Source: Sunxiuqinia dokdonensis (lineage in GTDB: Bacteria > Bacteroidota > Bacteroidia > Bacteroidales > Prolixibacteraceae). Taken from it: a stretch of 64,000 nt of DNA. Shown here one piece after another: positions 4,690-30,636 of the stretch. Position 1 is the first letter of the stretch. Every line of letters starts with the position of its first letter. The DNA lies in the NCBI RefSeq assembly GCF_001270965.1, contig NZ_LGIA01000205.1:1-64000 (forward strand), written 5' to 3'. Position numbers and translations under genes: made by a program. Below the pieces are notes generated by a model. The model was not told the DNA's origin. It did not search any database and worked only from the letters and a program-made list of their open reading frames with translations.

Positions 4690-4920
4690 GCAGCACATTA
4701 AGCGGTCGTTGCAGCGCAGTCAGTGGTCGTTGCAGCACTGTAAGTGGTCGTTGCAGTCCTGTCAGCGGTCGTTGCAGCGCTGTAAGTGGTCGTTGTAGTG
4801 CAGTAAGAGGTCGTTGCAGCACTGTAATCAGTCGTTGCAGTCCAGTCAGCAGTCGTTGCAATCCAGTCAGTGGTCGTTGCAGCCCAGTCAGCGGTTGTTG
4901 TAACGCAGTCAGCGGTTGTT
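4690..4920. repeat. 21-bp minisatellite, 11 units
   Basis: Eleven uninterrupted units of exactly 21 bp with the typical form GCAGCxCAGTCAGTGGTCGTT. GTCGTTGC (GTTGTTG in the last units) is the best-kept part and the middle varies. It lies between the convergent zntB and hsp20 genes. Because 21 is a multiple of 3, open frames on both strands give heptapeptide repeats (for example LQRPLTA on the minus strand); I take these as by-products of the repeat. Confidence 0.92.
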
Positions 4921-4975
4921 GTTTAATTGACCGGGCCTAATCTTCTTCTGAATGGAGAACTTTGGTCTTTAGTCA

Positions 4976-5002
4976 ATAAAAAAGCCCCGCATTTGCGAGG
5001 CC
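4976..5002 (-). terminator. Rho-independent terminator of hsp20
   Basis: Read on the minus strand: GCCTCGC, a short loop, GCGGGGC (one mismatch in the stem), then a run of T. It lies 37 bp after the hsp20 stop codon. Confidence 0.7.
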
Positions 5003-5038
5003 TTTCTGCTAACTAAACTAAAACCTAAACCAATAAAC

Positions 5039-5473
5039 TTATGAAATTTCAATCATTCGCGAAGCTTGTTTCTTATATGTTTCCAGCTTCGGAAGTGAGA
5101 TTTTCAGCACACCGTTTTTATGCGTTGCCTTAATCTCGTTGGCATCAACACCTTCCGGGAGGCGGAATGAGCGGCTAAACGATGTGTAATTAAACTCGCT
5201 GAACACCACTTTTTCTCCGTCCTTTTCTTCTTTTGTTTCTTTCTTTTCGGAAGAAACGGTTAGCACATTGTCTTTTAAGTCGACATGGAAATCGCTTTTT
5301 TCCAATCCCGGAGCGGCCACTTCAATTTCAAAATGGTCTTTTTTCTCGTAAACATTCACGGCTGGATTGGAGCTCCATTCTGGCTTCTCAAAAACATCAT
5401 TCCAGAAGTTTCTTCCAAAGAAATCATCGAATAAACCCGGAACATTTCGTTTGTTTCTCATTAATGGTAACAT
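5039..5473 (-). CDS. hsp20: Small heat shock protein, Hsp20/alpha-crystallin family
   Basis: 144 residues, the usual length. An N-terminal arm with Phe-rich LFDDFFGRNFW (14-24) precedes the alpha-crystallin domain (about 36-138), with AAPGLEKSDFHVDL and the closing NGVLKISLPK. It is an ATP-independent cytoplasmic holdase that binds unfolding proteins as an oligomer. The start ATG at 5473 has a strong Shine-Dalgarno sequence (AGGAGG), unusual in this phylum. It stands alone with its own terminator and is divergent from the riboswitch-TonB receptor unit. Heat or stress control is expected from the family but no clear operator is seen. Confidence 0.93.
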   Translation of the reverse strand: MLPLMRNKRNVPGLFDDFFGRNFWNDVFEKPEWSSNPAVNVYEKKDHFEIEVAAPGLEKSDFHVDLKDNVLTVSSEKKETKEEKDGEKVVFSEFNYTSFSRSFRLPEGVDANEIKATHKNGVLKISLPKLETYKKQASRMIEIS

Positions 5474-5481
5474 GGCTAAAT

Positions 5482-5490
5482 CCTCCTATT
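5482..5490 (-). promoter_or_regulatory. Strong ribosome binding site of hsp20
   Basis: Reading the minus strand, AGGAGG stands about 9 nt before the ATG (TAGGAGGATTTAGCCATG). Bacteroidota rarely use such full anti-Shine-Dalgarno pairing, so this site stands out among the genes here. Confidence 0.7.
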
Positions 5491-5704
5491 CTTTTGTTTA
5501 ACTTTTAACGACTACACCTGAGAATAATCAAAGCGTGTACCAAGGCGAATCCTTGCCGATTCTAGTGAAATTTAATCCAGATAAGGAGACAATTTGACTG
5601 GATTGAAGTCAAAATTTCATTGTTTAATTGGTTGATGCTGAAATATTTTCATGTTTTCGAATGGATGTTCCCTAATTTAGAATGCAGGGTGTGCTTTTCT
5701 TTTC

Positions 5705-5712
5705 TAACTTTG
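5705..5712 (+). promoter_or_regulatory. -7 promoter box TAACTTTG before the TPP riboswitch
   Basis: TAACTTTG matches TAnnTTTG. A transcript started about 6 nt downstream would begin exactly at the first stem of the TPP riboswitch, which supports both calls. Confidence 0.55.
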
Positions 5713-5715
5713 CAG

Positions 5716-5812
5716 CGTTGTTTACGCAATGGGGTGTCCAAAAATAAACGGACTGAGATCATACCCAAAGAACCTGATCCGGTTAGTACCGGCGTAGGGA
5801 GGGCGAAAGGAA
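5716..5812 (+). promoter_or_regulatory. TPP (thiamin pyrophosphate) riboswitch, THI element
   Basis: The conserved THI-box parts appear in order: GGGGTGTCC, GGACTGAGATCATACCC, and AACCTGATCCGGTTAGTACC followed by GGCGTAGGGAGG. These make the pyrimidine-sensor CTGAGA loop and the pyrophosphate-sensor helix. The element lies about 50 nt before the ATG of the TonB-dependent receptor. By family knowledge it should lower expression when intracellular TPP is high. No intrinsic terminator is obvious between it and the ATG, so control at translation start is more likely. Confidence 0.95.
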
Positions 5813-5860
5813 TTCAATTCCTACCTCATTGGTTATTTTATTAACCAAAATTATCACAAA

Positions 5861-8311
5861 ATGAAACGTTTAGGATTAATGCTGCTGATGCAGTGTTTGT
5901 TTGTGTATTCATTCGCACAGTTTTCGGTCAGCGGAAAAGTGACGGATGAATCGGGTGAAGAATTGGTTGGTGCCAACCTGGTTTTGTCGGGCAGCTACCG
6001 GGGCACGTCGACCAACGAAAATGGTGCTTTCCAGTTTCGGCATGTTAAAGCAGGAAATTACACTTTGAAAGTTTCCTACATGGGTTTCGAGAGTCGGAGT
6101 TTGAACCTGCAAGTCGATGGCGATACCGAGTTGGGCATTGAGCTGAAACCGCTGCACATCATGGCCGAGGAAGTGCTGGTTTCAGCCACACGGGCAGGCG
6201 ACAAAACGCCGGTAGCCAAAACAACGGTTGACCGGTCGACCATTGAAAGCCGGAATATGGGGCAGGATATTCCCTACCTGCTAACCATGACTCCCTCGTA
6301 TGTGGCCACGTCGGATGCCGGGGCTGGTATTGGATACACCAATTTCCGGATTCGCGGAACGGACCTGAACCGGATCAACGTGACGGTGAACGGAATCCCG
6401 ATGAACGACGCGGAGTCGCACGGAACCTGGTTTGTGGATATTCCCGACTTGGCCGGCTCGGTTGAGAACATCCAGGTGCAGCGCGGGGTGGGGACATCGA
6501 CCAACGGTGCCGCTGCTTTTGGAGCCACCATCAACCTGCAAACGTCGACGCTTAATTCGGAGGCTTACGCCGAGTACCGCACTTCGGCTGGTTCGTTTAA
6601 TACGCTGAAAAATTCGGTGGCGGCAGGCACCGGCTTGATCAACGACCACTTTACCTTCGATGTTCGATTGTCGAAAGTGAATTCCGATGGCTTTGTCGAT
6701 CGGGCTTCAGCCGATTTGAAATCCTTTTTTACCTCGGCTGGTTATTATTCTGAAAACACCATTCTGAAAGTGAATGTGTTTTCGGGTTTCGAAGAAACCT
6801 ACCAGGCATGGTATGGCGTTCCCTCAGTCCGGTTGGAAAATGACGCCGAAGGAATGCAACGCTACCTCGACCATTGGCTGTGGTCAGGATCAGCTCGTGA
6901 AAATGAAATTCGGTATGACGGATTAATCAATTCGGATTCGCGAACCTACAACTTCTACACTTACGAAAACGAAGTGGACCACTACCAGCAAGATCACTAC
7001 CAGTTACATTTCTCGCATCAGTTTAGTGATTATCTGAATTTGAATGCTGCCTTGCATTATACTTATGGTCGTGGCTACTACGAAAATTACAAGTATGACG
7101 AAGAGTATGCCGACTATCAGATGATTGCTCCTGACGGGATGGACGAAACGGACATGGTGGTTCGCAAATGGCTGGACAACGATTTTTACGGAACCACTTT
7201 TTCGCTGAATTACGATAAAAACAGATCTACTTTCACCTTTGGTGGTGGTTATAACACGTACGATGGTGATCATTTTGGACAAGTGATTTGGGCGCAATAC
7301 ATGGGCGAAAACGAAAAAGACCATGAGTGGTATCGCGGAACTGGTGTGAAAAAAGATTTTAATGCTTTTGGAAAGTACAATTACCAGCTTTCGGAAGCAG
7401 TGAGTTTGTATGCCGATTTGCAGTACCGGAACATCGATTATTCAATTGATGGCATTGACGATGATTTACGTGATTTGACGCAATCGCATCAGTTCAACTT
7501 TTTCAACCCCAAATTTGGAATCTTTTACCGACCAAACGATTCGCAGGAAGCTTACCTGAGCTTTGCCCGTGCCAACCGCGAGCCCAATCGCAGCAACTTT
7601 GTGGATGTTGATCCGGGAGATAGAATTCCGGTATCCGAAACCCTGAATGATTTTGAGGCAGGTTATACCTACCGGACATCCAACTTTTTGCTGGCTGCAA
7701 ACCTCTATTACATGGATTATAAAGATCAGCTGATTCAAACCGGCGAGTTGAATGATGTTGGTTCGTCGTTGATGATGAACGTGGATGAAAGTTACCGGGC
7801 TGGAATTGAACTAACTGGAGGTTTGAAATTGACACGTAGTTTGAGCTGGGATGCCAATGCCACCTTCAGTCAAAATAAAATCAAAAACTTTACCGAGTAT
7901 GTTGATAATTGGGACACCGGCGAACAGGATGCCTTTGAATTGGGTGAAACCGATCTGGCTTTTTCGCCCAATGTGATTGTTAACAGCCAATGGAAATTTG
8001 CTCCCGCCAAAGGTATTAACATCAGCTTGTTGTCCAGCTATGTGGGCGATCAGTACATCGACAACACGTCGAGCGACGATCGCAAGCTGGATGCCTGGTT
8101 TGTGAACAACCTGAAAGTGGAGTACGGCTGGAAGATATCCTTATTTGAGGAGGTGAAGCTGCACGTGATGGTGAATAACCTGTTTGATGCGGAATACGAA
8201 AGCAACGCCTGGGTGTATTCCTACCAGTTGGGGGGTGACCGTTACAAAATGGACGGCTATTATCCGCAGGCCGGAACACATTTCTTTGTCGGAATTGATT
8301 TCAAGTTTTAA
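5861..8311 (+). CDS. TonB-dependent receptor under TPP riboswitch control, probable thiamin uptake
   Basis: 816 residues. It has a signal peptide (1-20, ending SFAQ), a CarboxypepD-regulatory-like beta-sandwich (about 22-100), a TonB plug with FRIRGTDLNRINVTVNGIPM (about 162-181) and a 22-strand-type barrel ending in an aromatic residue (FKF). Such receptors move scarce ligands over the outer membrane with TonB-ExbBD energy. The TPP riboswitch just upstream indicates thiamin, its phosphates or a precursor as ligand; this is inference from regulation. No inner-membrane partner (PnuT or an ABC system) or thiamin kinase is adjacent, so the receptor is a stand-alone unit here. It is convergent with the carbonic anhydrase gene. 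Confidence 0.88.
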   Translation: MKRLGLMLLMQCLFVYSFAQFSVSGKVTDESGEELVGANLVLSGSYRGTSTNENGAFQFRHVKAGNYTLKVSYMGFESRSLNLQVDGDTELGIELKPLHIMAEEVLVSATRAGDKTPVAKTTVDRSTIESRNMGQDIPYLLTMTPSYVATSDAGAGIGYTNFRIRGTDLNRINVTVNGIPMNDAESHGTWFVDIPDLAGSVENIQVQRGVGTSTNGAAAFGATINLQTSTLNSEAYAEYRTSAGSFNTLKNSVAAGTGLINDHFTFDVRLSKVNSDGFVDRASADLKSFFTSAGYYSENTILKVNVFSGFEETYQAWYGVPSVRLENDAEGMQRYLDHWLWSGSARENEIRYDGLINSDSRTYNFYTYENEVDHYQQDHYQLHFSHQFSDYLNLNAALHYTYGRGYYENYKYDEEYADYQMIAPDGMDETDMVVRKWLDNDFYGTTFSLNYDKNRSTFTFGGGYNTYDGDHFGQVIWAQYMGENEKDHEWYRGTGVKKDFNAFGKYNYQLSEAVSLYADLQYRNIDYSIDGIDDDLRDLTQSHQFNFFNPKFGIFYRPNDSQEAYLSFARANREPNRSNFVDVDPGDRIPVSETLNDFEAGYTYRTSNFLLAANLYYMDYKDQLIQTGELNDVGSSLMMNVDESYRAGIELTGGLKLTRSLSWDANATFSQNKIKNFTEYVDNWDTGEQDAFELGETDLAFSPNVIVNSQWKFAPAKGINISLLSSYVGDQYIDNTSSDDRKLDAWFVNNLKVEYGWKISLFEEVKLHVMVNNLFDAEYESNAWVYSYQLGGDRYKMDGYYPQAGTHFFVGIDFKF

Positions 8312-8321
8312 ATTGACAGAT

Positions 8322-8352
8322 AATCCCCGGGCCGTTCCAGGTTCCGGGGGTT
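8322..8352. terminator. Shared hairpin terminator between convergent genes
   Basis: AATCCCCGG (8322-8330) pairs with CCGGGGGTT (8344-8352) with one G-T pair and is followed by TATT. It closes the TonB receptor on the plus strand and overlaps the stop codon of the carbonic anhydrase gene on the minus strand. The T-tract is weak. Confidence 0.5.
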
Positions 8353-8893
8353 ATTCAACTTCAATTTGAGCAAGGTTGTTATTGGCAACATTGTAGAAAA
8401 GCGGGGCAACCGTTACTTTGGGGTAGCGCCTGCGCAGCCGGCCGGCTTCAGCCACTAAAAAATCAACCGCATCGCCGATCTCAAAAAATGGCGAAAGATT
8501 TTCAAAATGCATTTGAGCCGTTTCGGCCTCCCATCCAGCATTGGCAGCCATTCCGCTGATAAATTTTTCCTTCCTGTTTTCGAGTTGAACCATTTCGCAG
8601 TTGGAGTGGCCAATTAACGCAATGTGCTGCACGCCACCAACCCCGATGGCGTAAGAAACCTGAAATTCGTGATAAAACAGGTTGGCTCCTCCCGAACGAA
8701 TGATGTAAGCAAAATTATCTGGCACCCACAGGTTTTTCCGGTTGTCCATGCACATGCCAATCAGCATTTTTGGATTTTCATGGGTGCTAAATGTCCTATT
8801 CAGATTCTGGTACTCCAGCAATAAACCGATGGGTGTGTTCCGATATTTAGGTAAAATATCCTCCTGCTCATTTACTTCAATCAGTCGTGTCAT
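8351..8893 (-). CDS. Beta-class carbonic anhydrase
   Basis: 180 residues. The zinc ligands and dyad of beta-carbonic anhydrases are present: CMDNR (48-52, giving Cys, Asp and Arg) and HSNC (96-99), with the linking segment IIRSGGAN. It should interconvert CO2 and bicarbonate in the cytoplasm, supplying bicarbonate to carboxylases or balancing pH. The protein is somewhat short but not truncated at either conserved end. It is transcribed alone, convergent with the riboswitch-controlled receptor. Confidence 0.85.
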   Translation of the reverse strand: MTRLIEVNEQEDILPKYRNTPIGLLLEYQNLNRTFSTHENPKMLIGMCMDNRKNLWVPDNFAYIIRSGGANLFYHEFQVSYAIGVGGVQHIALIGHSNCEMVQLENRKEKFISGMAANAGWEAETAQMHFENLSPFFEIGDAVDFLVAEAGRLRRRYPKVTVAPLFYNVANNNLAQIEVE

Positions 8894-8961
8894 TTTATCT
8901 TGCCAATTCGTTTTTTACTGCAACCAACGCAACTGCTAAAGGTTCAAAAAATCAATATAAA

Positions 8962-9072
8962 ATGATTTCCACTTACGCAACTATTTGTTCTGTTCTGGCT
9001 GTGATCATTGTCATTTTGGTCATTGATCGTCTTAATTCAACTAAAAGATCATCTCTAGTGACAATTGAATGA
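8962..9072 (+). CDS. Possible 36-residue single-pass membrane protein
   Basis: Starting at ATG 8962, the frame encodes MISTYATICSVLAVIIVILV and then a charged tail with DRLNSTKR. This is one clean hydrophobic helix of about 17 residues with a positive-inside tail, the layout of a bacterial small membrane protein. It lies alone between carbonic anhydrase and the SUI1 gene with no Shine-Dalgarno sequence. The frame stays open upstream to 8887 but the added residues are not convincing. It could be chance. Confidence 0.3.
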   Translation: MISTYATICSVLAVIIVILVIDRLNSTKRSSLVTIE

Positions 9073-9144
9073 CGTGGGGTAATTTTGCTGATATTCATCA
9101 AACAAAAGAATGGTGACTGGCCGTACCTCCTTGAATTTTCTTGT

Positions 9145-9152
9145 TACTTTTG
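9145..9152 (+). promoter_or_regulatory. -7 promoter box TACTTTTG before the SUI1-family gene
   Basis: TACTTTTG matches TAnnTTTG exactly, 28 nt before the ATG at 9181. No clear -33 element is seen. Confidence 0.4.
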
Positions 9153-9180
9153 AGGGTTTGAACGGATAAAGGAAACGATT

Positions 9181-9525
9181 ATGGCAAAAGATTGGAAAGA
9201 AAGGTTAGGCGTGGTTTATTCTACTAATCCTGATTTTGGTTACGAGAAAGCCGAAGCTGCTGATCAGGAAACCCTGCCGCCGAACAAGCAGGATTTGCGC
9301 GTGAGTTTGGACAAAAAGAACCGGAAAGGGAAAGCCGTGACGCTGGTGACTGGTTTTGTTGGAACAGACGATAACCTGAAAGCGCTGGGCAAACTGTTGA
9401 AGTCGAAATGCGGGGTAGGCGGATCTGCCAAAGATGGCGAAGTGATGATTCAGGGCGATTTTCGCGATAAAGTCATGCAGATTCTTCAAGCGGAAGGCTA
9501 TAAGGCCAAGCGGTCGGGAGGTTGA
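9181..9525 (+). CDS. yciH: SUI1/YciH-family translation initiation factor
   Basis: 114 residues. The C-terminal two thirds (about 38-108) match the SUI1/eIF1 fold, with KKNRKGKAVTLVTGF, then CGVGGSAKDGEVMIQGD and a final helix. The N-terminal 35 residues are a flexible leader. In bacteria such proteins bind the small ribosomal subunit and may sharpen start-codon choice, but their role is not settled. It is cytoplasmic. The mazG gene follows 84 bp downstream with its own -7 box, so the two are probably separate units. Confidence 0.88.
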   Translation: MAKDWKERLGVVYSTNPDFGYEKAEAADQETLPPNKQDLRVSLDKKNRKGKAVTLVTGFVGTDDNLKALGKLLKSKCGVGGSAKDGEVMIQGDFRDKVMQILQAEGYKAKRSGG

Positions 9526-9574
9526 TCCGCGGTTTTCTTTGACGAGCTTTTCTCTTCGCTTTCAGGAAAGATTG

Positions 9575-9582
9575 TAATTTTG
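9575..9582 (+). promoter_or_regulatory. -7 promoter box TAATTTTG before mazG
   Basis: TAATTTTG fits TAnnTTTG, 27 nt before the ATG at 9610, the same spacing as at the preceding gene. Confidence 0.4.
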
Positions 9583-9609
9583 CCCAATTCAAACTAAAAC
9601 ACCGTATTG

Positions 9610-10386
9610 ATGAAAGATAAATTGGAAGCTTTTGGAAAACTATTACAAATTATGGATGAACTACGCGAGCAGTGCCCCTGGGACAGGGAGCAGACTTTTG
9701 AGTCGTTGCGCAGGCTCACCATCGAAGAAACCTATGAACTGGGCGATGCCATTTTGCAGGCCGATCTTCAGGAAATTAAAAAGGAGCTGGGCGATTTGCT
9801 GCTGCACATTGTGTTTTATGCCAAGATTGGTTCAGAACAAAAGGCTTTCGACATGACGGATGTGATCAACAGTTTGAACGAAAAACTGATTTACCGGCAT
9901 CCGCATATTTATGGCGAGGTGGATGTGAACAATGCCCGCGAAGTGGAGCAAAACTGGGAAGCCTTGAAACTGAAGGAAAAAGGCCGGAAAAAGAAAACGG
10001 TGCTGGAAGGTGTTCCTGCTTCATTGCCGGCTTTGGTTAAGGCGAACCGCATCCAGGAGAAAGCCAGCGGTGTGGGTTTCGATTGGGAACATCCGGACCA
10101 GGTGTGGGACAAAGTGAAGGAAGAGGTCAGTGAGTTGCAGCACGAGTTAACGGAAAACAACCGTGATAAAATTGAAGCTGAATTTGGCGACTTGTTTTTT
10201 GCGATGGTCAACGCCGCCCGGTTATATGGAGTCGATCCGGAAGCGGCACTGGAACGCACCAACCTGAAGTTTATCAAACGTTTTAATTACCTCGAAAGCC
10301 AAACCCTAAAAAAAGGGAAAGACCTGAAAAATATGCCCCTATCCGAAATGGATCGTTATTGGGAGGAAGCGAAAAGGATGGAATAG
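9610..10386 (+). CDS. mazG: Nucleoside triphosphate pyrophosphohydrolase MazG
   Basis: About 258 residues from the ATG at 9610 (a TTG lies one codon earlier). Two MazG all-alpha domains are seen. The N-terminal one (about 25-100) has CPWDREQTFESLRR, EETYE and KKELGDLLLH; the C-terminal one (about 160-235) has EEVSEL and EAEFGDLFFAMVN. The Glu/Asp residues bind Mg. The enzyme hydrolyses NTPs or dNTPs to monophosphate and pyrophosphate and cleans the nucleotide pool. Length and two-domain layout match full-length bacterial MazG. It is convergent with the DUF2007 gene, with stop codons only 2 bp apart. Confidence 0.93.
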   Translation: MKDKLEAFGKLLQIMDELREQCPWDREQTFESLRRLTIEETYELGDAILQADLQEIKKELGDLLLHIVFYAKIGSEQKAFDMTDVINSLNEKLIYRHPHIYGEVDVNNAREVEQNWEALKLKEKGRKKKTVLEGVPASLPALVKANRIQEKASGVGFDWEHPDQVWDKVKEEVSELQHELTENNRDKIEAEFGDLFFAMVNAARLYGVDPEAALERTNLKFIKRFNYLESQTLKKGKDLKNMPLSEMDRYWEEAKRME

Positions 10387-10388
10387 AT

Positions 10389-10616
10389 TTATTCCTGAAA
10401 CTCATTCAGAACAGGTTCGGCCAAACTCAGGTCTCCTTCGCGAATGTAAAGGTCAACGCCGGTTGGGGTACTGCCGGCAAATCCGGCTGCAATGCCCGAC
10501 TGAAAATCATTTTGAATAATGGCCGAAATGCCTGTTTCTTCCAGTTTGGCTTTTAGTAAAATAACCGAAACTTCACTTCCGGAAAAGACACGGATCAGAT
10601 TTTCTTCGCTTTTCAT
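10389..10616 (-). CDS. DUF2007 domain protein
   Basis: 75 residues when started at the ATG at 10616; a longer frame reaches 10667 but its extra residues lie outside the domain. The sequence ENLIRVFSGSEVSVILLKAK leads into a small alpha-beta fold, ending VDLYIREGDLSLAEPVLNEF. This fits DUF2007, often annotated as a putative signal-transducing protein related to PII-like folds. No ligand is known. It is cytoplasmic and transcribed alone. Confidence 0.7.
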   Translation of the reverse strand: MKSEENLIRVFSGSEVSVILLKAKLEETGISAIIQNDFQSGIAAGFAGSTPTGVDLYIREGDLSLAEPVLNEFQE

Positions 10617-10829
10617 TGTATGGTAGTTTTTTAAAAGTGGGTTTTTAACAGAGTCCAATTTAGTCAAATTTCATGGCTGAACATTCGTTCCGACGGACTT
10701 TTTTTAAGGTCAAAAAAAGAGGGAGTCCAAGCTACCACCCCCTTTTGCTGAATAATCAGAAAAAGCAGACTCTTTCACGGTAACCTGATCCTCCCTCAAC
10801 CTTTGTAAAGGAATCTAGTTATAAAGCAC

Positions 10830-11786: not shown

Positions 11787-12151
11787 CTTTTCTAAGTTTT
11801 AGAATTGAGTTTAACACTTTCGTTTCTTCATGTAATTTTTCTCACTTCACATGTGTAACCGGTGATTTAGGTGTCCCTAACAAATAAAATTTTCACATGT
11901 TCAATAAATCTTTCGATTTTAAAGAATCGATAAAGGGGGAGACGCAATGGCTGTGCCAAACGTATTTGATTCTACAACATGCAGTTTGTCAGGCGGGTGG
12001 TGAGTTGCCAGATCAATTTTGATTATCAATATGAATCCGTAATTTTCAAATTGAGACTATTTCGTCTGATTTGTGAATATTCTGAATTCGTTGATTGGTG
12101 AGTGGGGGAGAAGTGGAGATTTTAGCGGGATGGAATTGAGGGAGCAAAATG
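11787..12151. other. Intergenic stretch upstream of the DUF4382 gene
   Basis: About 365 bases with no gene I can support. It is mixed AT-rich sequence that must carry the promoter of the minus-strand DUF4382 gene. I see no riboswitch, tRNA or strong repeat. Confidence 0.5.
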
Positions 12152-12176
12152 AAAGGAGGCTGTCGGGCCTCCTTTT
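12152..12176. terminator. Hairpin terminator after the CDGSH gene
   Basis: AAAGGAGGC (12152-12160) and GCCTCCTTTT (12167-12176) form a 9-bp stem around 6 nt. It stands 22 bp beyond the stop codon of the minus-strand CDGSH gene. Confidence 0.65.
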
Positions 12177-12197
12177 ATCTTGTTGGTTTTGATGATC

Positions 12198-13397: not shown

Positions 13398-14522
13398 ATG
13401 AAAAAAACAGATCTGTTCATTCCGTTGATAACCATTTTATTGGTTTCGTGCAGTCCCAAAAAAGAAACCTTACTGTATGTTGGAACCTACACCGAGAATG
13501 AAAGCGAAGGAATTTACACTTACCAGTTTGACCAGGAAACCGGCGAGCTGGCCTTGAAACTGGTAACGCCAAATAAGGAAAATCCGTCGTTTCTCACCAC
13601 TTCGCCCGATCGTAAGTACCTGTATGCGGTGTCGGAGGTTACTGAAAGCCCGGGCATGGACAGTGGCTCGGTAACGGCCTACCGGATAACGGCCTCGGGC
13701 GCCCTCGAAAAAATCAACCAAAAGGCTACAAAGGGCTATCATCCTTGTCATGTGGAGGTGTCGCCTGATGGTAATTTTGTGGTTGCTTCAAATTACAGCA
13801 GCGGCACCCTTAGTTTTTATCGGGTGGACCAAGATGGCGGGCTGAGCGATTCCTTTCAGCAGATCCAGCATGAAGGAACGGGGCCAGACACCATCCGTCA
13901 AAAGCAGCCCCACGCGCATTCGGCTTTGTTCGACGCTTCGGGCGAATGGCTTGTCTCGGCTGATTTGGGCAACGATAAACTCGAATTCTACCAGTACAAC
14001 GAAGCTACCGCTCAGTTTCAGGAAGCGGAGAAACCTTTCGTTGCTATGGAGCCCGGCGCCGGACCGCGTCACTTCACCTTTTCGCCCGACGGGCAGTTTA
14101 TTTATGTGATGAATGAGCTGAATTCGACGGTGAGCGTGCTGAAAAAGCAAGGCGAACATTTTGAGTTGCAGGAGAGCGTTTCGGCCTTGCCTGCGGGCTT
14201 TGCGGGCGACAGCTATGGTGCGGATATTCACTTGAGTGCCGATGGCCGCTTTGTGTACAGCTCGAACCGGGGACACAACTCCATCGCCGTGTTTGGCCGC
14301 GAGCCCGATGGCAGCATTCGTCTGATTGAAACCGTTTCGGTGGAGGGCGAATGGCCCCGCAACTTCGCCCTGACGCCCAATGGCAGCTTCCTTTTGGTGG
14401 CCAACCAGCACAGCAACAACGTGACCGTGTTCCGCGTTGATCCGCAGGCAGGAACCCTGTCCTATACCGGCAAAAGTGTGGACATTCCCAATCCGGTTTG
14501 CCTTCAGTTTCTTAGCCGCTGA
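13398..14522 (+). CDS. Lactonase-family seven-bladed propeller lipoprotein (6-phosphogluconolactonase-like)
   Basis: 374 residues. The signal peptide has lipobox LLVSC (Cys18), so the protein is anchored in an envelope membrane. The family features follow: YVGTYTENESEGIYTY near the N-terminus, SPDRKYLYAVSE, PCHVEVSPDGNFVVASNYSSG, PRHFTFSPDGQFIYVMNE and the closing blade GEWPRNFALTPNG. The family (Pgl/YbhE type) hydrolyses sugar lactones. The envelope location argues against cytoplasmic 6-phosphogluconolactone and for a periplasmic lactone. A 15-unit minisatellite starts 13 bp after its stop. Confidence 0.83.
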   Translation: MKKTDLFIPLITILLVSCSPKKETLLYVGTYTENESEGIYTYQFDQETGELALKLVTPNKENPSFLTTSPDRKYLYAVSEVTESPGMDSGSVTAYRITASGALEKINQKATKGYHPCHVEVSPDGNFVVASNYSSGTLSFYRVDQDGGLSDSFQQIQHEGTGPDTIRQKQPHAHSALFDASGEWLVSADLGNDKLEFYQYNEATAQFQEAEKPFVAMEPGAGPRHFTFSPDGQFIYVMNELNSTVSVLKKQGEHFELQESVSALPAGFAGDSYGADIHLSADGRFVYSSNRGHNSIAVFGREPDGSIRLIETVSVEGEWPRNFALTPNGSFLLVANQHSNNVTVFRVDPQAGTLSYTGKSVDIPNPVCLQFLSR

Positions 14523-14535
14523 TCCCAATTCCCTA

Positions 14536-14858
14536 ACAGCAGGGGCTTGCGCCTTGTTTGCATGAGTTTCTGAATCATCTGCAAGCGCTTGGTTGTCATC
14601 CGCAGGAGCTTGGTTGTCATCCGCAAGAGTTTGGTTGTGGTCCGACAGAGCTTGCGCCTCGCCCGAAAGAGCTTGCACCTCGCCCGACAGAGCTTGCGCC
14701 TCGCCCGAAAGAGCTTGCACCTCGCCCGACAGAGCTTGCACCTCATCCGACAGAGCTTGCGCCTCGTCCGACAGAGCTTGCGCCTCGTCCGACAGAGCTT
14801 GCGAATCGTCCGCAGGAGCTTGCGAATCGTTTGCATGGGCCTGTCCCTCATCCGACGG
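14536..14858. repeat. 21-bp minisatellite, about 15 units
   Basis: Fifteen units of 21 bp plus a partial one. The typical unit is TCCGACAGAGCTTGCGCCTCG. The central units (14641-14808) are nearly identical and the edges are degraded, as expected from unequal exchange. No stop codon falls in the unit in most frames, so long overlapping frames exist on both strands (for example heptads of SDEAQAL); I treat these as artefacts. It is unrelated in sequence to the 21-bp array at 4690-4920. Confidence 0.92.
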
Positions 14859-21642: not shown

Positions 21643-21660
21643 CACCAAATTTTGATGATT

Positions 21661-23889: not shown

Positions 23890-24021
23890 GGAAGTTTCGA
23901 GTTTCGAGTTTAAAGTTTCATCAAGCAGCTGGCGGGTGAGTTGGAATACAGGATGAGTATGTGTGTCAAAAATCAAGTATCTGTTATCTGAAAATCCAGT
24001 ATCACGGATCAAGTCATATCG

Positions 24022-24987
24022 CTAGAAGCAATATTCCGCAGCGAGGTATGACTCGACGTAATCCTGAATGGCATCTTCCAGGCTGATGAACGGTTGGTTG
24101 TAGCCGGCTTGCCTGAGCTTGTCGATTTTGGCACAGGTGTAATACTGGTAATTATTGCGAATATCTTTTGGTGTGTCTACAAAACGGATGTCCGCTTCAA
24201 TTTTCATGGCCTTGAAAACTGCCCGGCTGAGGTCAAGATAAGTGCGGGCCACACCGGTTCCGACATTAAAAATCCCCGAAATCTGTTGATTGTTCATGAA
24301 GTGAAGCATCACCTGGGCCACATCTTCCACATAGATAAAATCGCGGGCTTGTTCACCATCTCGAAAGTCGGGACGGTGGGAGCGGAAAAGTGTCATCTTT
24401 TGGGTTTCGCTGATTCGGTTAAACGCTTGATAAACGACCGATGCCATTCGTCCTTTGTGGTATTCGTTGGGCCCAAAAACATTGAAAAACTTCAATCCTG
24501 CCCAAAAAGGTGGCTGTTGTTTCTGAGCTAATGCCCAAAGGTCAAAATCATGCTTCGACTGGGCGTAACAATTCAAGGGTTTGAAATTGTCAATCAATTG
24601 GTGATCATCGTCGAAGCCAAATTCGCCATCGCCGTAGGTTGAAGCCGATGATGCATAAATCAAAGGCAGGCCATATTCGACACAGCTGGTCCAAATTCGT
24701 TGCGAATAGTCAAAGTTGAGCTTTTTGTAGCTGTCCGGGTCTTGTCCGATCGTGTCGGTCCGGGCACCTAAATGAATCACAAGTTCAACCAATCGGTGAT
24801 TATCATCGAGCCATTCGAAAAATTCGTCCCGGTCAATAAGTTTGCTGTAATTTTTTGAAATGTAGTTTGATATTTTCAAAGGATCGGTGAATTGATCAAC
24901 CAAAATCAGGTCATGGTATCCTTCCTGGTTTAACTTACCAGCCATGTAGCTTCCAATAAAACCTGCAGCTCCCGTAACAACAATCAT
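24022..24987 (-). CDS. hldD: ADP-L-glycero-D-manno-heptose-6-epimerase
   Basis: 321 residues, extended SDR fold. The NADP-binding motif is TGAAGFIGSYMAGKLN (5-20). The catalytic Ser region is YASSASTYGDG, YAQSK holds the Tyr and Lys, and LKFFNVFGPNEYHKG with FRDGEQARDFIYVEDV is typical of the HldD branch. It makes ADP-L-glycero-heptose for the lipopolysaccharide inner core. It is not next to other core genes. The 130 bp between it and yaaA hold only short TTTCGAG repeats. Confidence 0.9.
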   Translation of the reverse strand: MIVVTGAAGFIGSYMAGKLNQEGYHDLILVDQFTDPLKISNYISKNYSKLIDRDEFFEWLDDNHRLVELVIHLGARTDTIGQDPDSYKKLNFDYSQRIWTSCVEYGLPLIYASSASTYGDGEFGFDDDHQLIDNFKPLNCYAQSKHDFDLWALAQKQQPPFWAGLKFFNVFGPNEYHKGRMASVVYQAFNRISETQKMTLFRSHRPDFRDGEQARDFIYVEDVAQVMLHFMNNQQISGIFNVGTGVARTYLDLSRAVFKAMKIEADIRFVDTPKDIRNNYQYYTCAKIDKLRQAGYNQPFISLEDAIQDYVESYLAAEYCF

Positions 24988-25238
24988 ATCAACTGATTTT
25001 CTTCTCTACTTTTATGCGATCAACACAAGGCAAACTTAAAAAATGTTAAAATATTGTTATCCCGTTGAAAAATAATTTCCGAAAGAAGCCGAACACCAAT
25101 TTGCCTTTTGTGACAGTACAAAAATAGAAATTTATCCCACGCCTGAAACCGGATTCGTGTCTTATGCCGGAATTGTTCTGTTTTAGAATGATTTACCCTT
25201 TGTTGTTCTTGTAAAATCAGATTATAACGATAAGTTTA

Positions 25239-25246
25239 TACTTTTG
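25239..25246 (+). promoter_or_regulatory. -7 promoter box TACTTTTG of folE
   Basis: Exact TAnnTTTG match, 34 nt before the ATG at 25281. Confidence 0.45.
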
Positions 25247-25280
25247 TTGGTAGAATTAACTGAACACATACACATTGGAT

Positions 25281-25904
25281 ATGGAAGATTCATTTAACGG
25301 GAAGAAAAGCGGCTATCGGCGTATTGAAAAATTTGATCGCCTGCATACTGAGAAGATCAGCGAGCATTACCGTGAAATTATTGATTTGCTTGGAGAAGAT
25401 GTGACACGTGAAGGATTGCAGAAAACACCGCTGCGGGTAGCCAAGGCCATGCAGTTTTTGCTTCAAGGGTACGAGCAGGATCCCGAAGCCATGTTGCGCT
25501 CGGCCATGTTTAAAGAAGACTACCGTCAGATGGTGATTGTGAAAGACATTGAAATTTATTCGATGTGCGAACATCACATGCTTCCATTTATCGGCAAGGC
25601 ACACGTGGGCTATATTCCCGATGGTTATATTACCGGTTTGAGTAAGATTGCGCGGGTGGTCGATGCTTTTTCGCGGCGCTTGCAGGTTCAGGAACGGCTC
25701 ACCTTGCAGATCAAGGAGTGTATTCAGAACACGCTGAACCCGCTCGGGGTAGCCGTGGTGATAGAAGCCCAGCACCTGTGCATGCAAATGCGGGGCATTC
25801 AGAAACAGCACTCCATTACCACAACCTCTGACTTTACCGGGGCATTTCAGCGCGTGGCCACCCGTGAAGAATTTATCAAACTAATCAGCTCCAAGCTTTC
25901 GTAG
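25281..25904 (+). CDS. folE: GTP cyclohydrolase I
   Basis: 207 residues from the ATG at 25281 (an in-frame TTG lies 6 bp earlier). It shows [20 protein letters not shown], the zinc and active-site segment [39 protein letters not shown] and [16 protein letters not shown] with the second zinc Cys. It converts GTP to 7,8-dihydroneopterin triphosphate, the first step to folate or, through QueD, queuosine. It acts as a cytoplasmic decamer. Length and motifs are complete. It is transcribed alone. Confidence 0.96.
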
Positions 25905-26152
25905 TTTCTGAATAAAAATTGCTGGTGATCCGTTTGGCCAAAGTAGCCAGCAAGATGCGGATCAATTGAGCTGGACAAGGCAAACGGTAACGGAATATTA
26001 TCTGAAAAATCACTTTCAAATCATACGAGTACGAACAATTTTATATTATTTTAGCTAAAAATTTTACAGATAGATACCGGAATGGGTATTGGCCACTGAT
26101 GCAGAGACTAACATTTAAAAGAAAAAATAATCGATCATTAAAAACCATAAAC

Positions 26153-26980
26153 ATGAAAAGAACAAGAACATACAAATTCGTTTCTTTGGCGATCTTGTCA
26201 GGGCTGTTTGCCTTTGGATTTAGCTCGTGTACGGGCAAAAAAGAAAAAAAGACAGATCCTGAAGTGGTTGAGGAAACAATAAAAGAAGAAATTAAGGAGT
26301 ACTCCTATCCGATAGCTTCAGCCTTTGATGTCACTGAAATGTTGAACGAAATTGAGGCAAGCTACATCGTCGGATTGACCAATGATCCTGAAAAAGCAGG
26401 TGCTTATTTCTCAGAAAAAGACCGTGCAGTGAATTTGGGAATTTACACTGCCGACTTGGCTTACGCAACCACCTACAATCAAAAATCAGACGTGCAGAAT
26501 TACTTTAAAGCCAGCGAAACATTGGTTCGTGAATTGGATTTAACCGGTGCATTTCAGGAAGATTTGCCAGACCAGATTGAAGCGAACCTGGACAACAAGG
26601 AAAAATTGGTTGAAATTATTACCAACATGTTTCAAAACGCCTACTCCTATCTCAATCAGCAGGGACGGGCGGAAGTTTCGTATCTGGTGCTCTCCGGGAG
26701 TGTGATTGAAGGCTTGTATCTGACAACAAACGTGTCGGAAAATACCTTCCAAAATCCAAAGTTGATTGAAGCGATTCTGTTTCAGGAAGAGCCGCTGATG
26801 AAACTGGAGGAAATGATGGAGCCCTACAAAGACACCGAAATACTTGGTGATCTGTATGCCGATATTGCCAGTGTCAATGCCGTTTACGCCTTGGAAGAAG
26901 GATCAACGTCCATGACGAAAGAGCAAGTTGTTAAGTTGACTGATTTGATCGCATCTATTCGGAATAAGTTTGTTCAGTAA
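26153..26980 (+). CDS. Conserved hypothetical lipoprotein
   Basis: 275 residues from MKRTRTYKF; the frame is open upstream but the 18 extra residues are basic and precede the signal peptide. The lipobox gives Cys26 (FSSC), followed by a Lys/Glu-rich linker TGKKEKKTDPEVVEETIKEE. The rest is mostly helical, with NLGIYTADLAYATTYNQKSD and YLVLSGSVIEGLYLTTNV as the best-defined parts. I know of no named domain or function. It lies 93 bp upstream of a large ABC transporter on the same strand, so the two may act together. Confidence 0.75.
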   Translation: MKRTRTYKFVSLAILSGLFAFGFSSCTGKKEKKTDPEVVEETIKEEIKEYSYPIASAFDVTEMLNEIEASYIVGLTNDPEKAGAYFSEKDRAVNLGIYTADLAYATTYNQKSDVQNYFKASETLVRELDLTGAFQEDLPDQIEANLDNKEKLVEIITNMFQNAYSYLNQQGRAEVSYLVLSGSVIEGLYLTTNVSENTFQNPKLIEAILFQEEPLMKLEEMMEPYKDTEILGDLYADIASVNAVYALEEGSTSMTKEQVVKLTDLIASIRNKFVQ

Positions 26981-27073
26981 AGCACCATGCTTTTAAAATA
27001 TAAAACGGGTTTTTGTTGTTCCGCTTTTAGATCAGGAATGCAGAAATCCGTTTTTTCTTAAACTCCCAGCCTT

Positions 27074-30000
27074 ATGTATGAAGGTATCATCGAAACGTTG
27101 ATCCGGTTGTTTGCCATCATTACCGACTACCACAATGAAGATTCCAAAAAGATTTCTTCGGAGCTGGTGGAGTCGTTTTTGCATGAGAACTTCAACCGTG
27201 AACTGGTGGATGTATATCATCAGCATTACCTCGAGTTTGTTGAGCATTACCACATTACCAACCGTGATATTTTGTATGAACAGAACGGTAACGGGCAGAA
27301 GTTTATCAACAAGTCGTACCTGAATGAAATTTGTGGCGAGATCGTTGCGCAGTTCGATCTGGGGACACGATTTATGATTGTCGCTCAGCTTTTAAACTTC
27401 ATCAAAAAAGAGGGCGATTTTAAGCTCGACGACCTCAAAACAGTAAACTTGGTCGCGCGCGGTTTGAAGATCAATTCGAAAGAATACGACAGCCTGTACC
27501 GGTTTCACCTTTATTCCATCCAAAAAGTCAAAGACAAGGCCAGTCTGTTTGTGGTGAATGGCAACGAAAGTTATCACGACAAGGAGATCAAGCACCTTTA
27601 CCGCGAAAATCAGCAGGTGGAGCTCGAATTGATACGCATTGCCAGCATCAATACGCTGTTTTTTAAATACTGGGGGCCGCGAAACATGTATATGAACGGA
27701 CATCGTTTAACCCAGCACCGTTTGTATGTTTTTCCTCCGGGAGCCATTCTGAAAACCTCACGGATTATTCCCATCTACTACAGCAGCGTCATGACCCGTT
27801 TCATCCAGGAAAAGGGCAAGCCGCGTATCGTGCTGAATGTGGAAAACATTGAATACCGTTTCACCCGGAAAAACTACGGCCTGCATCCCTTCAGTTTTCA
27901 GGAGCGCTCGGGCGATTTGGTGGGTATTTTGGGGGGCAGTGGCGTTGGAAAGACAACCCTGCTGAATGTGCTCAACGGGAAGCTGAAGCCCAACGCCGGA
28001 ACCATTACCATCAACGGGTACGATCTGCATGATCCGGATAATGAGGAATTGTTGAAAGGTGTCATTGGTTACGTGCCCCAAGACGACCTGCTGCTGGAAG
28101 AGCTGACCGTGTACAAAAACCTGGAATTCAACGCCCGGTTTTGTTTTGGCGATATGAACGACGAGCAGATTGAAGCAAAGATCGATCAGGCGCTGAATGA
28201 TTTTGACTTGGTTGAAGCCCGTGATTTGGTGGTTGGAAGCCCGCTGAAAAAGATATTGAGCGGCGGCCAGCGAAAGCGCCTGAACATTGCCTTGGAACTG
28301 ATGCGCGAACCCTCCATTCTGTTTGTCGATGAGCCGACCTCGGGTTTGTCCTCGGCCGATTCGGAAAAGGTGATGTACCTGCTGAAAAAGCAATGCCTGA
28401 AGGGCAAGCTGGTGTTTGCCAACATTCACCAACCATCCAGCGATATCTACAAGCTCTTTGACCGAATGATCGTGATGGACAAAGGGGGTAGGGTGGTGTT
28501 CTTTGGAAACCCGATGGATGCCATTGTGTACTTCAAGAATGAGGCAAACTACGTCAATCCGGACGAAAGCGAATGTTTGAGCTGTGGAAATGTGAAGACG
28601 GAACAGCCGCTTCGGATTATTGAAACCCGCATGGTGAATCCGTTTGGCAAAAGCATCCGACGGCGGAAGATTTCGCCCGAAGATTGGTACGAACGCTATA
28701 AGAAGCATGTGGAGCCACGTGTGCTCGACTTCATGATCACCAATCCGGCAGAGAAAGAGGTCTTTCCGGATGTGTACTTCAAGGTGCCCGACTGGTTCCG
28801 GCAGTTGAAGTTGTTTATTCAACGCGACTTTGCCACCAAACGTTCAAACCGGCAGTATCTGGCCATTGCGCTGCTTGAGGCACCTTTGCTGGCCTTGATT
28901 CTGGGCTTCTTCTCAAAATACTCGGACAATGGAACTTACTGGCTGGCTAACAACGACAATTTACCGGCTTTTCTTTTTATGAGCGTCGTCGTTGCCTTGT
29001 TTATCGGACTTAGTATTAGCGCCGAAGAAATTTTTAAAGACCGCAAAATTCTCAAACGCGAGGAGTTCCTCGATTTAAGTCGCGGAGCCTACATTTCATC
29101 CAAAATATTGATGCTCTTTCTCATTTCGGCTGTTCAGGTGATTTCCTTTGTGCTCATCGGCCATCATATGCTCGAAATCCAGGGGCTGACCTTTTCAACC
29201 TGGGCCATTCTGTTTTCAACGGCCTGTTTTGCCAATTTGCTCGGCCTCAATCTGTCTGCCGGTTTAAATTCGGCTGTGGCCATTTACATTTTGATTCCGC
29301 TTATGCTGGTTCCGCAACTGCTGCTCAGCGGAGTCATCATCGATTTTAATAAAATGCATCCGTCGTTAAGCAGCTACAACCGCACACCGCTGATTGGCGA
29401 TGTCATGGTTTCGCGCTGGTCGTACGAGGCGTTGGCGGTCAACCACTTCAAAAACAACGCCTACCGGAAGATGATTTTCAAGGAGGAGCAAGTAAAGAAT
29501 GATTTGGGTTTTCAAGCGTTTTACTGGATTCCGGAAGTGGAGAAGTATCTGATTTCGTACAAGTTATTGAATCAGAATAACCGGCTCAAGGAAGCAGAAA
29601 CACTGTCGCCCGTGCTCAAAAATTCTTTTGCCGATTTGTTTGAAGGCGTGGGGCAGTTTAACGATTCTATTCACCTGGCTTACGAGTCGATCGGTACGAG
29701 CAATTTCAACCCGGATTTTGGTAAAATGTTGACTGATTATCTGAGTCTTTCGCAGGAAAGCTACAAGCAAAGATATGGAGAAGCCTCGCGTGTGTTGGAG
29801 CAAAAGTACGAGGATTTATTGGGCAGATTTGGAGGAGACAACGAACAGCTGCTTGCGTTTAAACAACAGCATACCAACAAGAAAATGGAAAGCCTGGTGC
29901 GCGACAAATATAGCGTTCACAAAACATACGTATTTGATAACCGGATTTTTCAGGGCGACGAGCCTGTCTACAGGCCGCCCGCTCAAACCAATGGAGCTGC

Positions 30001-30241
30001 GCATTTCTATGCCAGCTATAAATTGTTGGGTGAATGGAGGATTGACACCATCTTTTATAATATTGGTGTGATGTGGCTGTTGACTTTTTTGCTGATGGTG
30101 GCCCTGTACTTCGACTTGCTCCGTAAGGCGCTCACCTACGTCGAAAACTGGCGACTGGCACGTCAGGCCCGCCTCCGCGACCATATCTTTTATAATCCCA
30201 TGGCTTTTATGAAAGGCGAAACGAAGGACCGGCGCAAATGA
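27074..30241 (+). CDS. Large ABCG-like ABC transporter with extra N-terminal and extracytoplasmic domains
   Basis: 1055 residues. Residues 1-250 are a helical, charged domain I cannot name. The ATPase follows (about 252-480): Walker A GGSGVGKTT (287-295), signature LSGGQ (395-399), Walker B ILFVDEP (415-421). A CLSCG pair stands at 501-505. The ABC-2 permease has helices at about 596-613, 630-649, 677-697, 708-728 and 734-755, then a soluble segment of some 260 residues, and a last helix near 1018-1037. Nucleotide-binding domain before membrane domain is the ABCG order. The substrate is unknown. A lipoprotein gene precedes it on the same strand. Confidence 0.82.
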   Translation: MYEGIIETLIRLFAIITDYHNEDSKKISSELVESFLHENFNRELVDVYHQHYLEFVEHYHITNRDILYEQNGNGQKFINKSYLNEICGEIVAQFDLGTRFMIVAQLLNFIKKEGDFKLDDLKTVNLVARGLKINSKEYDSLYRFHLYSIQKVKDKASLFVVNGNESYHDKEIKHLYRENQQVELELIRIASINTLFFKYWGPRNMYMNGHRLTQHRLYVFPPGAILKTSRIIPIYYSSVMTRFIQEKGKPRIVLNVENIEYRFTRKNYGLHPFSFQERSGDLVGILGGSGVGKTTLLNVLNGKLKPNAGTITINGYDLHDPDNEELLKGVIGYVPQDDLLLEELTVYKNLEFNARFCFGDMNDEQIEAKIDQALNDFDLVEARDLVVGSPLKKILSGGQRKRLNIALELMREPSILFVDEPTSGLSSADSEKVMYLLKKQCLKGKLVFANIHQPSSDIYKLFDRMIVMDKGGRVVFFGNPMDAIVYFKNEANYVNPDESECLSCGNVKTEQPLRIIETRMVNPFGKSIRRRKISPEDWYERYKKHVEPRVLDFMITNPAEKEVFPDVYFKVPDWFRQLKLFIQRDFATKRSNRQYLAIALLEAPLLALILGFFSKYSDNGTYWLANNDNLPAFLFMSVVVALFIGLSISAEEIFKDRKILKREEFLDLSRGAYISSKILMLFLISAVQVISFVLIGHHMLEIQGLTFSTWAILFSTACFANLLGLNLSAGLNSAVAIYILIPLMLVPQLLLSGVIIDFNKMHPSLSSYNRTPLIGDVMVSRWSYEALAVNHFKNNAYRKMIFKEEQVKNDLGFQAFYWIPEVEKYLISYKLLNQNNRLKEAETLSPVLKNSFADLFEGVGQFNDSIHLAYESIGTSNFNPDFGKMLTDYLSLSQESYKQRYGEASRVLEQKYEDLLGRFGGDNEQLLAFKQQHTNKKMESLVRDKYSVHKTYVFDNRIFQGDEPVYRPPAQTNGAAHFYASYKLLGEWRIDTIFYNIGVMWLLTFLLMVALYFDLLRKALTYVENWRLARQARLRDHIFYNPMAFMKGETKDRRK

Positions 30242-30636
30242 TGGAAAGGAAACGTTTGATCCTCGGTTTGTATGCGGAGGAATTTTTCTCATGGCGATGA
30301 TTTAAGTAGTGCGAATAATTTAGTGTCCTGTTTCGAGTCTTTAACAATTTGTGATCGAAGTGAAACCGAAAATATCAAATAGGTCCGTGACCTTATTTTC
30401 ATCAGGAAGGACTTTTAATTCCATCAGGAAGAAAATAAAATTCCATCAGGAAGAAAATAAAATTCCATCGGGGAGAAAATAAATTTCCATCGGGAAGAAA
30501 ATAGAACGCTATCGGGAAGGAAATTTCATGTCGTCAGGACATAAAAAAGATCAACCGGAAAGCGAGTGGTCGAATCTGATCGACTCTTTGAACTCTCAGC
30601 GTCCATCGGGCGCTTACTTGAAAAAGATTCCAAGGA
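30242..30636. other. Intergenic region holding the 22-bp minisatellite
   Basis: 395 bp between the convergent ABC-transporter and metallo-hydrolase genes. Apart from the tandem array at 30399-30552 I see no gene, RNA or clear terminator. Confidence 0.6.
30399..30552. repeat. 22-bp minisatellite, about 7 units
   Basis: Six clear units of 22 bp (starts at 30399, 30421, 30443, 30465, 30487, 30509) and a degraded seventh. The second and third are identical (CCATCAGGAAGAAAATAAAA plus TT). Units 4-6 carry ATCGGG in place of ATCAGG. It lies in the gap between convergent genes and is unrelated in sequence to the two 21-bp arrays. Confidence 0.88.

Follow-up and report, generated by a model that had tools for sequence, protein, structure and literature searches.

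Why do three tandem arrays without common sequence have repeat units of almost the same length, two turns of the DNA helix? We addressed this question for three arrays in a stretch of 64,000 nucleotides from Sunxiuqinia dokdonensis, hereafter termed the window. The arrays and their neighboring genes are the following (a dot indicates that no strand is assigned).

3691..4656, strand +: CorA-like Mg2+ transporter gene upstream of array 1 (Pfam PF01544, E 6e-62)
4688..4921, strand. : array 1, 21-bp unit, 11.1 copies (TRF), flanked by the convergent CorA (+) and Hsp20 (-) genes
5039..5473, strand -: Hsp20 family gene, convergent to array 1 (Pfam PF00011, E 2e-27)
13398..14522, strand +: lactonase (7-bladed beta-propeller) gene upstream of array 2 (Pfam PF10282, E 3.8e-119)
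14575..14824, strand. : array 2, 21-bp unit, adjoining sub-arrays of 3.8 and 8.8 copies (TRF), 3' of the lactonase gene
27074..30241, strand +: ABC transporter gene upstream of array 3 (Pfam PF00005, PF01061)
30393..30524, strand. : array 3, 22-bp unit, about 5 copies (TRF), flanked by the convergent ABC transporter (+) and beta-lactamase-fold (-) genes
30637..31851, strand -: beta-lactamase-superfamily gene, convergent to array 3 (Pfam PF12706; start uncertain, 31851 or 31749)

The three arrays were confirmed to be real and to lie between genes. The window contained a 60-base stretch with 45 matches at 7 of the lags between 4 and 120, while 20 second-order Markov shuffles of it yielded no such stretch. 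The unit lengths of 21, 21, and 22 bp given in the initial annotation were reproduced by TRF, and no sequence common to the units of the three arrays was visible when they were compared by eye. Their location 3' of genes was likewise correct, with 31, 52, and 151 bases separating the stop codon from arrays 1, 2, and 3, respectively. For arrays 1 and 3 the second, convergent gene also has its 3' end facing the array. The only match in the Rfam search was a TPP riboswitch at positions 5720-5817.

Period and placement in the genome sample

We analyzed a non-randomly chosen sample of 1.0 Mb of the 4.96 Mb genome (about 20%), of which 83% is coding; locus L012, which duplicates the window, was excluded. 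A period-neutral 60-base scan identified 32 tandem regions, 19 with periods of 21, 22, 40-42, or 63 bp and eight with a 7-bp period. When a 20-base scan was applied at lags 8-63, 19 of the 70 places found were at 20-22 bp, none at 17-19, four at 23-25, and 10 at 41-43; the distribution peaks sharply at 20-22 bp and shows an echo at 41-43 bp. The TRF histogram placed 28 of 68 arrays at 20-22 bp; since it is biased toward two-copy repeats near 20 bp, the period claim is based on the two scans. The unit length common to the three arrays is therefore not a chance feature of the window, and the proposal of the initial annotation that a common process sets the period is supported. Neither a broad distribution of periods nor arrays equally common inside genes, the outcomes it had named as contrary, was found in this sample.

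Relative to genes called by codon usage, 18 of the 19 arrays with periods of 21, 22, 40-42, or 63 bp were intergenic, the single overlap being at L038. Between co-directional genes the array was closer to the upstream stop codon in nine of 11 cases (P = 0.065, sign test; P = 0.025, Wilcoxon), and convergent gene pairs held five of 18 arrays compared to 2.1 expected (P = 0.047). The 3' bias is moderate.

Several unrelated sequences with equal unit size, 20-23 nt and repeated at least four times, were found within this one genome. No common short word stood out when the consensus units of the arrays were compared by eye. An internal sub-repeat of 7 or 10-11 bp within the unit was tested and rejected; in the 21-bp class, identity at lag 7 averaged 0.244, without a 7-bp sub-repeat. 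No 21-bp arrays were found in five plasmid stretches of other taxa (250 kb; one tandem region, period 27) or in three cyanobacterial plasmid stretches (150 kb; one region, period 6).

Related arrays and the corresponding sites in relatives

Each window array has two to three related stretches at unlinked places of its own genome (C161 and C148 for array 1; C174, C212, and C156 for array 2; C190 and C146 for array 3). The statement that the arrays are not of common descent therefore holds between families, but not within them. The three window families were found to be species-specific: no arrays of these families were detected among the first-look candidates scored in six other genomes of the genus, one of which is 71% complete. 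For array 3, these genomes had a lone unit, in G003, and a weak match, in G002. No 20-22-bp array was present at the CorA loci of relatives (L072-L075, L138-L141), and none was detected by TRF 3' of the lactonase gene in the flanks examined at 17 loci of other genomes (L079-L095). At the array 3 site the closest relative, G003, carries one full unit, identical at 21 of 22 positions, plus a partial one. Most simply read, array 3 would have arisen by local tandem duplication of a sequence present in this state in G003.

These observations fit neutral minisatellites, for which the copying machinery of the lineage would duplicate sequence between genes, preferentially in steps of about two helical turns set, for example, by staggered nicks or by slippage fixed by an enzyme footprint, and no selection would follow. 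Relatives lack arrays at the matching sites examined, the G003 site has a single unit, many unrelated sequences are involved, and arrays are scarce in genes and near gene starts, as tolerated junk would be. We hold this explanation to be a real, if tentative, possibility.

The dispersal of array families over unlinked places could also mean that the arrays are what is left of a miniature transposable element which, like BrickBuilt of Porphyromonas gingivalis, had a minisatellite inside it. Family 2 agrees with this to the extent that a stretch of about 280 bp, including the end of the lactonase gene, is shared along with the array. The three arrays of family 1, however, have nothing but the array in common within 1.5 kb on either side, the window arrays are flanked by only short, imperfect inverted repeats, and the unit sequence differs from family to family. 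A search for element ends, i.e., terminal inverted repeats or a shared leader and tail, gave none for family 1 and the three window arrays. Such an origin is exceedingly improbable.

Conservation within the repeat units

We compared the units of each array and determined the share of the conservation variance carried by the second harmonic (10.5 bp), relative to column permutations (expected share 0.10). Fifteen of the 19 arrays entered the harmonic set, while L028, L031, L039, and L071 were kept apart (low base-lag identity or period 40-41). L038 was included in this set and in the 17 arrays used for slippage simulation, and excluded from the set of 14. A unit with one conserved and one variable half, tested first, was not supported (Stouffer z 1.0; 15 arrays), and short-range clustering of conservation was observed (z 4.4; 15 arrays). 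The 10.5-bp share was 0.297 (z 8.0; 14 arrays) in a test that is exploratory, the pattern having been noticed in and then tested on the same arrays. The rhythm was also found with one array per family (z 6.9; 11 arrays), with array ends trimmed by 21 bases (z 6.0; 13 arrays), and in a TRF-called set that largely overlaps the main one (z 5.2; 14 arrays). When the phase was taken from half of the units, held-out identity fell from 0.79 at the crest of the 10.5-bp wave to 0.54 at its trough (16 arrays). The 21-bp harmonic was somewhat raised too (z 2.0; held-out identity 0.75 to 0.59).

Restricted to the three window arrays, the test gave z 1.7 (P = 0.066), and array 3 was without rhythm (share 0.03). 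Outside the discovery set, where many of the 13 arrays are low in copy number, at least twice the expected share was found in four (L181, L028, L037, and L190) and not in L104, L031, L039, L071, and five weak arrays. Unlinked sister arrays had matching conservation profiles (r 0.52-0.65, P = 0.0002-0.0074) for two of the three families, a similarity that may be partly inherited; the third family showed no agreement between loci (r -0.15).

Coding repeats would account for both lengths at once, as 21 nt encode one heptad, and the period of 21 nt and the rhythm of 10.5 nt would both follow from a helix that is amphipathic or forms a coiled coil. Array 1, alone among the window arrays, had an excess of differences in the third position in both open frames (third-position fraction 0.46 and 0.48, with a synonymous share of 0.63 and 0.52). 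The minus strand of array 2 reads as a heptad-like repeat within a 396-aa antisense ORF that matches bZIP weakly, below the Pfam cut-off; the ORF is open because stop-free repeats stay open by themselves. Against coding, open frames were as frequent as in column-permuted controls for all 17 arrays (lowest P = 0.16), array 3 lacks any open frame, three of the 17 arrays have a period of 22, nearly all arrays lie outside called genes as described above, and the codon harmonic was not raised (0.086 in 15 and 0.074 in 14 arrays, 0.10 expected). Sister arrays of array 1 (L040, L043) lacked the third-position excess. We rejected coding heptads, which are very improbable. The earlier assertion that none of the arrays is coding is supported, though not proved.

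Arrays of RNA or DNA hairpins acting as terminators or mRNA stabilizers are improbable. Compared with column-permuted controls, folding was far more stable for three of the 19 arrays (L022, L024:8351, and L028) irrespective of the strand (z -2.3 to -5.9) and for L040 on one strand (z -1.9). The window arrays (z -1.0 to +1.7) and the other 12 had no folding excess, and the rhythm was equally strong when the hairpin-forming L022 and L024:8351 were left out (z 8.3; 12 arrays). No array matched an Rfam family at gathering scores, by which Rfam elements were rejected. Hairpins were rejected as a general explanation, and a hairpin type of transcription termination, one role considered in the initial annotation, found no support for the window arrays.

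The rhythm bears on neutral copying as well. Simulated slippage with mutation yielded a share of 0.099, and the observed 0.265 (17 arrays) was never reached in 20,000 draws; the profile agreement of unlinked arrays in two of three families also speaks against this explanation. In its favor, the rhythm is weakly supported out of sample, and it could still be imitated by a helical mutation bias beneath a bound protein. Neither codons nor hairpins nor simulated slippage account for the rhythm.

For most arrays of the set, conservation within the unit is concentrated in two patches, each about 5 bp long and spaced by one turn, so that the bases conserved along an array tend to lie on one face of the helix. 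As read from the units, geometry rather than sequence appears to be kept across unrelated arrays. The arrays belong to a described, unexplained class of 20-23-nt repeats. Our preferred reading, with a probability of roughly 0.45, is that they form a one-face, iteron-like docking track for protein. The putative protein or proteins, suggested by the conservation rhythm, would bind adjacent major grooves on one helix face, aligned unit after unit along the array as initiators are on plasmid iterons. Units of 20-22 bp would be favored because neighboring copies stay in phase. A bound track behind genes or between convergent genes might conceivably act as a barrier to transcription or supercoiling. 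Counting against a docking track, so many unrelated sequences could be served only by a large number of proteins or by a single one with very low sequence specificity.

A broader version, which we consider on the unlikely side, is an intergenic element class defined by geometry, where selection or a copying machine would keep two one-face patches per two-turn unit whatever the sequence, and a protein filament or row of dimers could run along it. If so, the rhythm would be the first functional signature of constant-size 20-23-nt repeats, as far as the papers searched show.

Relation to known repeat systems

Cyanobacteria have short tandemly repeated heptamers. The arrays resemble these in that 21 is three times seven and that 7-bp arrays also occur in this genome, but differ in that the 21-bp class has no 7-bp periodicity inside its unit. 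Plasmid iterons are tandem direct repeats about two turns apart, and the initiator binds each unit via two successive major grooves on one face. The present arrays share the direct repeats at about two helical turns; unlike iterons, which serve one origin, they are many and unrelated, and the one iteron initiator family searched, PF01051 (Rep3_N), was absent from this genome (G000). For iteron-type paired patches on one face, the possible counterpart here is the conservation rhythm, with mixed results out of sample.

BrickBuilt of P. gingivalis consists of intergenic 23-nt tandem repeats at many loci, in one family with terminal inverted repeats (PMC4596501). Common to both are the Bacteroidota host and intergenic tandem repeats of about the same size at many loci, whereas here there are several families and shared ends were not found.

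The initial annotation recognized no described element class. Such a class is, however, described by Subirana and Messeguer, who in the sections consulted report tandem repeats of 20-23 nt, constant in size and variable in sequence, from many bacteria, leave their function open, point out that the unit spans two helical turns, and propose that a protein polymerises on the DNA (PMC8161180). The published puzzle is one unit size for unrelated sequences in unrelated bacteria. If the conserved bases truly lie on one face, this puzzle becomes testable and the fixed size would be explained by neighboring sites being in phase; absence of the rhythm from other genomes would make fixed-step copying the favored answer. 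In either case the question has been sharpened. The 20-23-nt class itself is already known, and what is new here is the exploratory observation of a 10.5-bp rhythm of bases conserved between units. Judged by the same sections of that paper, the arrays resemble its repeats in equal unit length, in having several families per genome, and in being mostly non-coding and species-specific, and they differ in their Sunxiuqinia-like Bacteroidota host, in the site of a relative that has one unit, and in the 10.5-bp rhythm.

Three arrays and their surroundings

Three tandem arrays of near-identical period lie within the window at the positions given in the initial annotation, and all three were recovered by TRF:

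4688-4921: array 1, 21 bp, 11.1 copies; upstream gene CorA
14575-14824: array 2, 21 bp, 3.8 + 8.8 copies; upstream gene lactonase
30393-30524: array 3, 22 bp, about 5 copies; upstream gene ABC transporter

A convergent gene also borders array 1 (Hsp20) and array 3 (beta-lactamase fold). A 60-base stretch with 45 matches was found at seven lags between 4 and 120 in the unshuffled window, and at no lag in that range in 20 second-order Markov shuffles of it. Three other features were seen downstream of array 1:

4984-5001 (-): hairpin followed by six T behind the Hsp20 gene, intrinsic-terminator-like by eye; not listed by a scan over 4500-5100
5720-5817 (+): TPP riboswitch (Rfam RF00059, 70.4 bits)
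5861-8311: large open reading frame directly downstream of the riboswitch, outer-membrane receptor-like by eye

Period, position and coding in a sample of the genome

The genome (4.96 Mb, 225 contigs) was sampled as 60 stretches, 1,004,315 bases, picked by contig number and size and hence non-random. A period-neutral scan (45 matches in 60 bases at lag p, an equal demand on every period) gave 32 tandem regions, 19 of which had periods of 21 (eight), 22 (three), 40 (one), 41 (one), 42 (five) or 63 bp (one), hereafter the class. The remaining periods were 7 (eight), 14 (one), 25 (two), 81 (one) and 113 bp (one). A short direct-repeat scan (17 of 20 matches, lags 8-63) found 70 places: 19 had lags of 20-22 and 10 had lags of 41-43; lags of 17-19 were absent and lags of 23-25 occurred four times. 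The observation of a shared period in the window is correct, and the period peaks in both scans of the sample, a generality exceeding what could have been known from the window. The 7-bp and 14-bp arrays form a second repeat class, whose clusters lie in part where about 2 kb of sequence contains no called gene:

L018 (contig C5) 5681-9735 and 14652-14758: 7-/14-bp array clusters
L047 (contig C25) 85-1134: 7-/14-bp array cluster

Genes were called with a purpose-made hexamer-based caller, the 754 genes covering 83% of the sample; 18 of the 19 class arrays were intergenic (binomial P ~2e-13). Co-directional genes flanked 11 of the 18, with nine of these closer to the stop codon of the preceding gene (sign test P 0.065, Wilcoxon P 0.025), while five had convergent flanks against 2.1 expected (P 0.047) and two divergent flanks against 4.1 expected (P 0.18). 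This positional bias may reflect only tolerance of arrays away from promoters.

Whether the arrays are coding is important, because a coiled-coil heptad would yield the same 21-nt period and a 10.5-nt rhythm. Open reading frames through 17 arrays, three of them with period 22, were not in excess over column-permuted copies (lowest P 0.16), and array 3 had no open frame. This supports the proposed non-coding nature, but in the two open frames of array 1 the share of differences at third positions was 0.46 and 0.48, opposite to a non-coding reading. Its sister arrays gave no excess (L040 0.28, L043 0.36-0.38), and one frame of L038, an array overlapping a called gene, gave 0.44.

Conservation rhythm within the units

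Units within an array are not identical: across 15 arrays the mean per-column majority was 0.71-0.83. The differences are unevenly spread, most arrays in the set having two conserved runs alternating with two variable runs per unit. The second harmonic (10.5 bp) held 0.283 of the variance of the conservation profile compared to 0.10 after column permutation (15 arrays, z 7.6), the rhythm having been first spotted and then tested on these same arrays. Its share was 0.297 in the 14 arrays overlapping no called gene (z 8.0), and it persisted after trimming (z 7.5 and 6.0), with a single array per family (z 6.9), without two hairpin-forming arrays (z 8.3), without the window arrays (z 8.1) and in arrays chosen by TRF (z 5.2). 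With the phase set from half of the units, held-out identity ran from 0.79 to 0.54. The three window arrays alone gave z 1.7 (shares 0.29, 0.26 and 0.03 for arrays 1, 2 and 3), and 4 of 13 arrays outside the set reached twice the expected share.

The codon harmonic did not rise over the array set, and no 10-11-bp repeat was found within the sequence itself. A fixed-step copying process with no subsequent selection is a serious rival to the protein-track reading set out below; simulated duplication and mutation gave a flat spectrum with no rhythm. The same positions were conserved between unlinked arrays in two of three families, to which inherited variation could add, while the third showed no profile agreement between loci.

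In two arrays (L024 8351-8579 and L022 15795-16010) the units are inverted repeats that fold much more stably than their permuted counterparts (z -2.3 to -5.4). Between units of L024 the two arms both differ, and by eye they frequently still match.

Relatives and turnover

The class is patchy among relatives, whose stretches were small and non-randomly picked. By the period-neutral scan, G001, a member of the same genus, had two class regions among three in 200 kb (periods 21 and 41; too few to separate its density from that of our genome), and G002 had one among three in 189 kb (period 42). None was found in G005 (400 kb) or in the closest relative, G003 (113 kb). In 200 kb of G017, from another genus of the family, 1 of 9 qualified (period 63). 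Two long tandem regions of G017 (L196 2425-3522, period 108; L201 2136-3146, period 99) are perhaps repeat proteins, their periods being multiples of 3.

In L072-L075 the sequence downstream of CorA contained no 20-22-bp array by TRF, nor did that following the gene at eight ABC loci (L108-L115). The available flanks of the lactonase gene at 17 loci from other genomes (L079-L095) had none either, apart from a 21-bp repeat in two copies upstream of the L079 gene. Downstream repeats of 11 and 12 bp (2.5 copies) occurred in L115 and L075. The 60-base scan found no array in CorA loci L138-L141, L138 and L074 being apparently one genome. Three Sunxiuqinia proteins share 76-79% identity with the CorA of the window. 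The array-1 site in relatives is not a clean empty site, the CorA-Hsp20 matches being 738-818 bases apart in G001, G004, G005 and G006 compared to about 340, array included, in our genome.

At the array-3 site, G003 (ABC protein 93% identical) has one full unit that matches at 21 of 22 bases, followed 27 bases further along by a second, partial copy. The simplest account is that array 3 expanded in our genome through local duplication; it may instead have been lost in G003.

Relatives of at least about three units' length lie elsewhere in the genome for array 1 (C161, C148; sequence inspected), array 2 (C174, sequence inspected; C212, C156) and array 3 (C190, C146). The same searches found no arrays of these families in six further genomes of this genus; array 3 matched the single unit in G003 and one weak place in G002 (E 7.6e-4). 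Within 1.5 kb, family 1 members have the array alone in common, while family 2 shares about 280 bp including the final 48-49 lactonase codons. At L104 1215-1644 (C174) a relative of array 2 lies beside a duplicated lactonase gene end (49 codons, 80% identical) with the rest of the gene missing, a partial segmental copy bearing array and gene end.

A two-turn unit with two patches one turn apart would place the conserved bases on one helix face, a geometry that would suit a protein gripping two successive major grooves and stacking on its neighbour. From the position behind genes, we guess that such a putative track might serve as a barrier to transcription or supercoiling. The classic example of a protein gripping successive grooves and stacking is seen on plasmid iterons. 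The initiator family PF01051 is absent from our genome, and the arrays are therefore not iterons of the PF01051 kind.

The initial annotation recognised no described element class, which does not hold: the class is already known, yet unexplained, and is described in PMC8161180. There, tandem repeats of constant size and variable sequence (units of 20-21 or 52 nt for Bacillus and of 20-23 nt for many other groups; earlier survey in PMC6749651) are mostly species-specific and largely non-coding, two helix turns are remarked upon, and polymerising proteins or small RNAs are proposed. Our searches of open-licence papers gave no report of a 10.5-bp conservation rhythm in such repeats, and conservation on one helical face is a lead that deserves a proper test.
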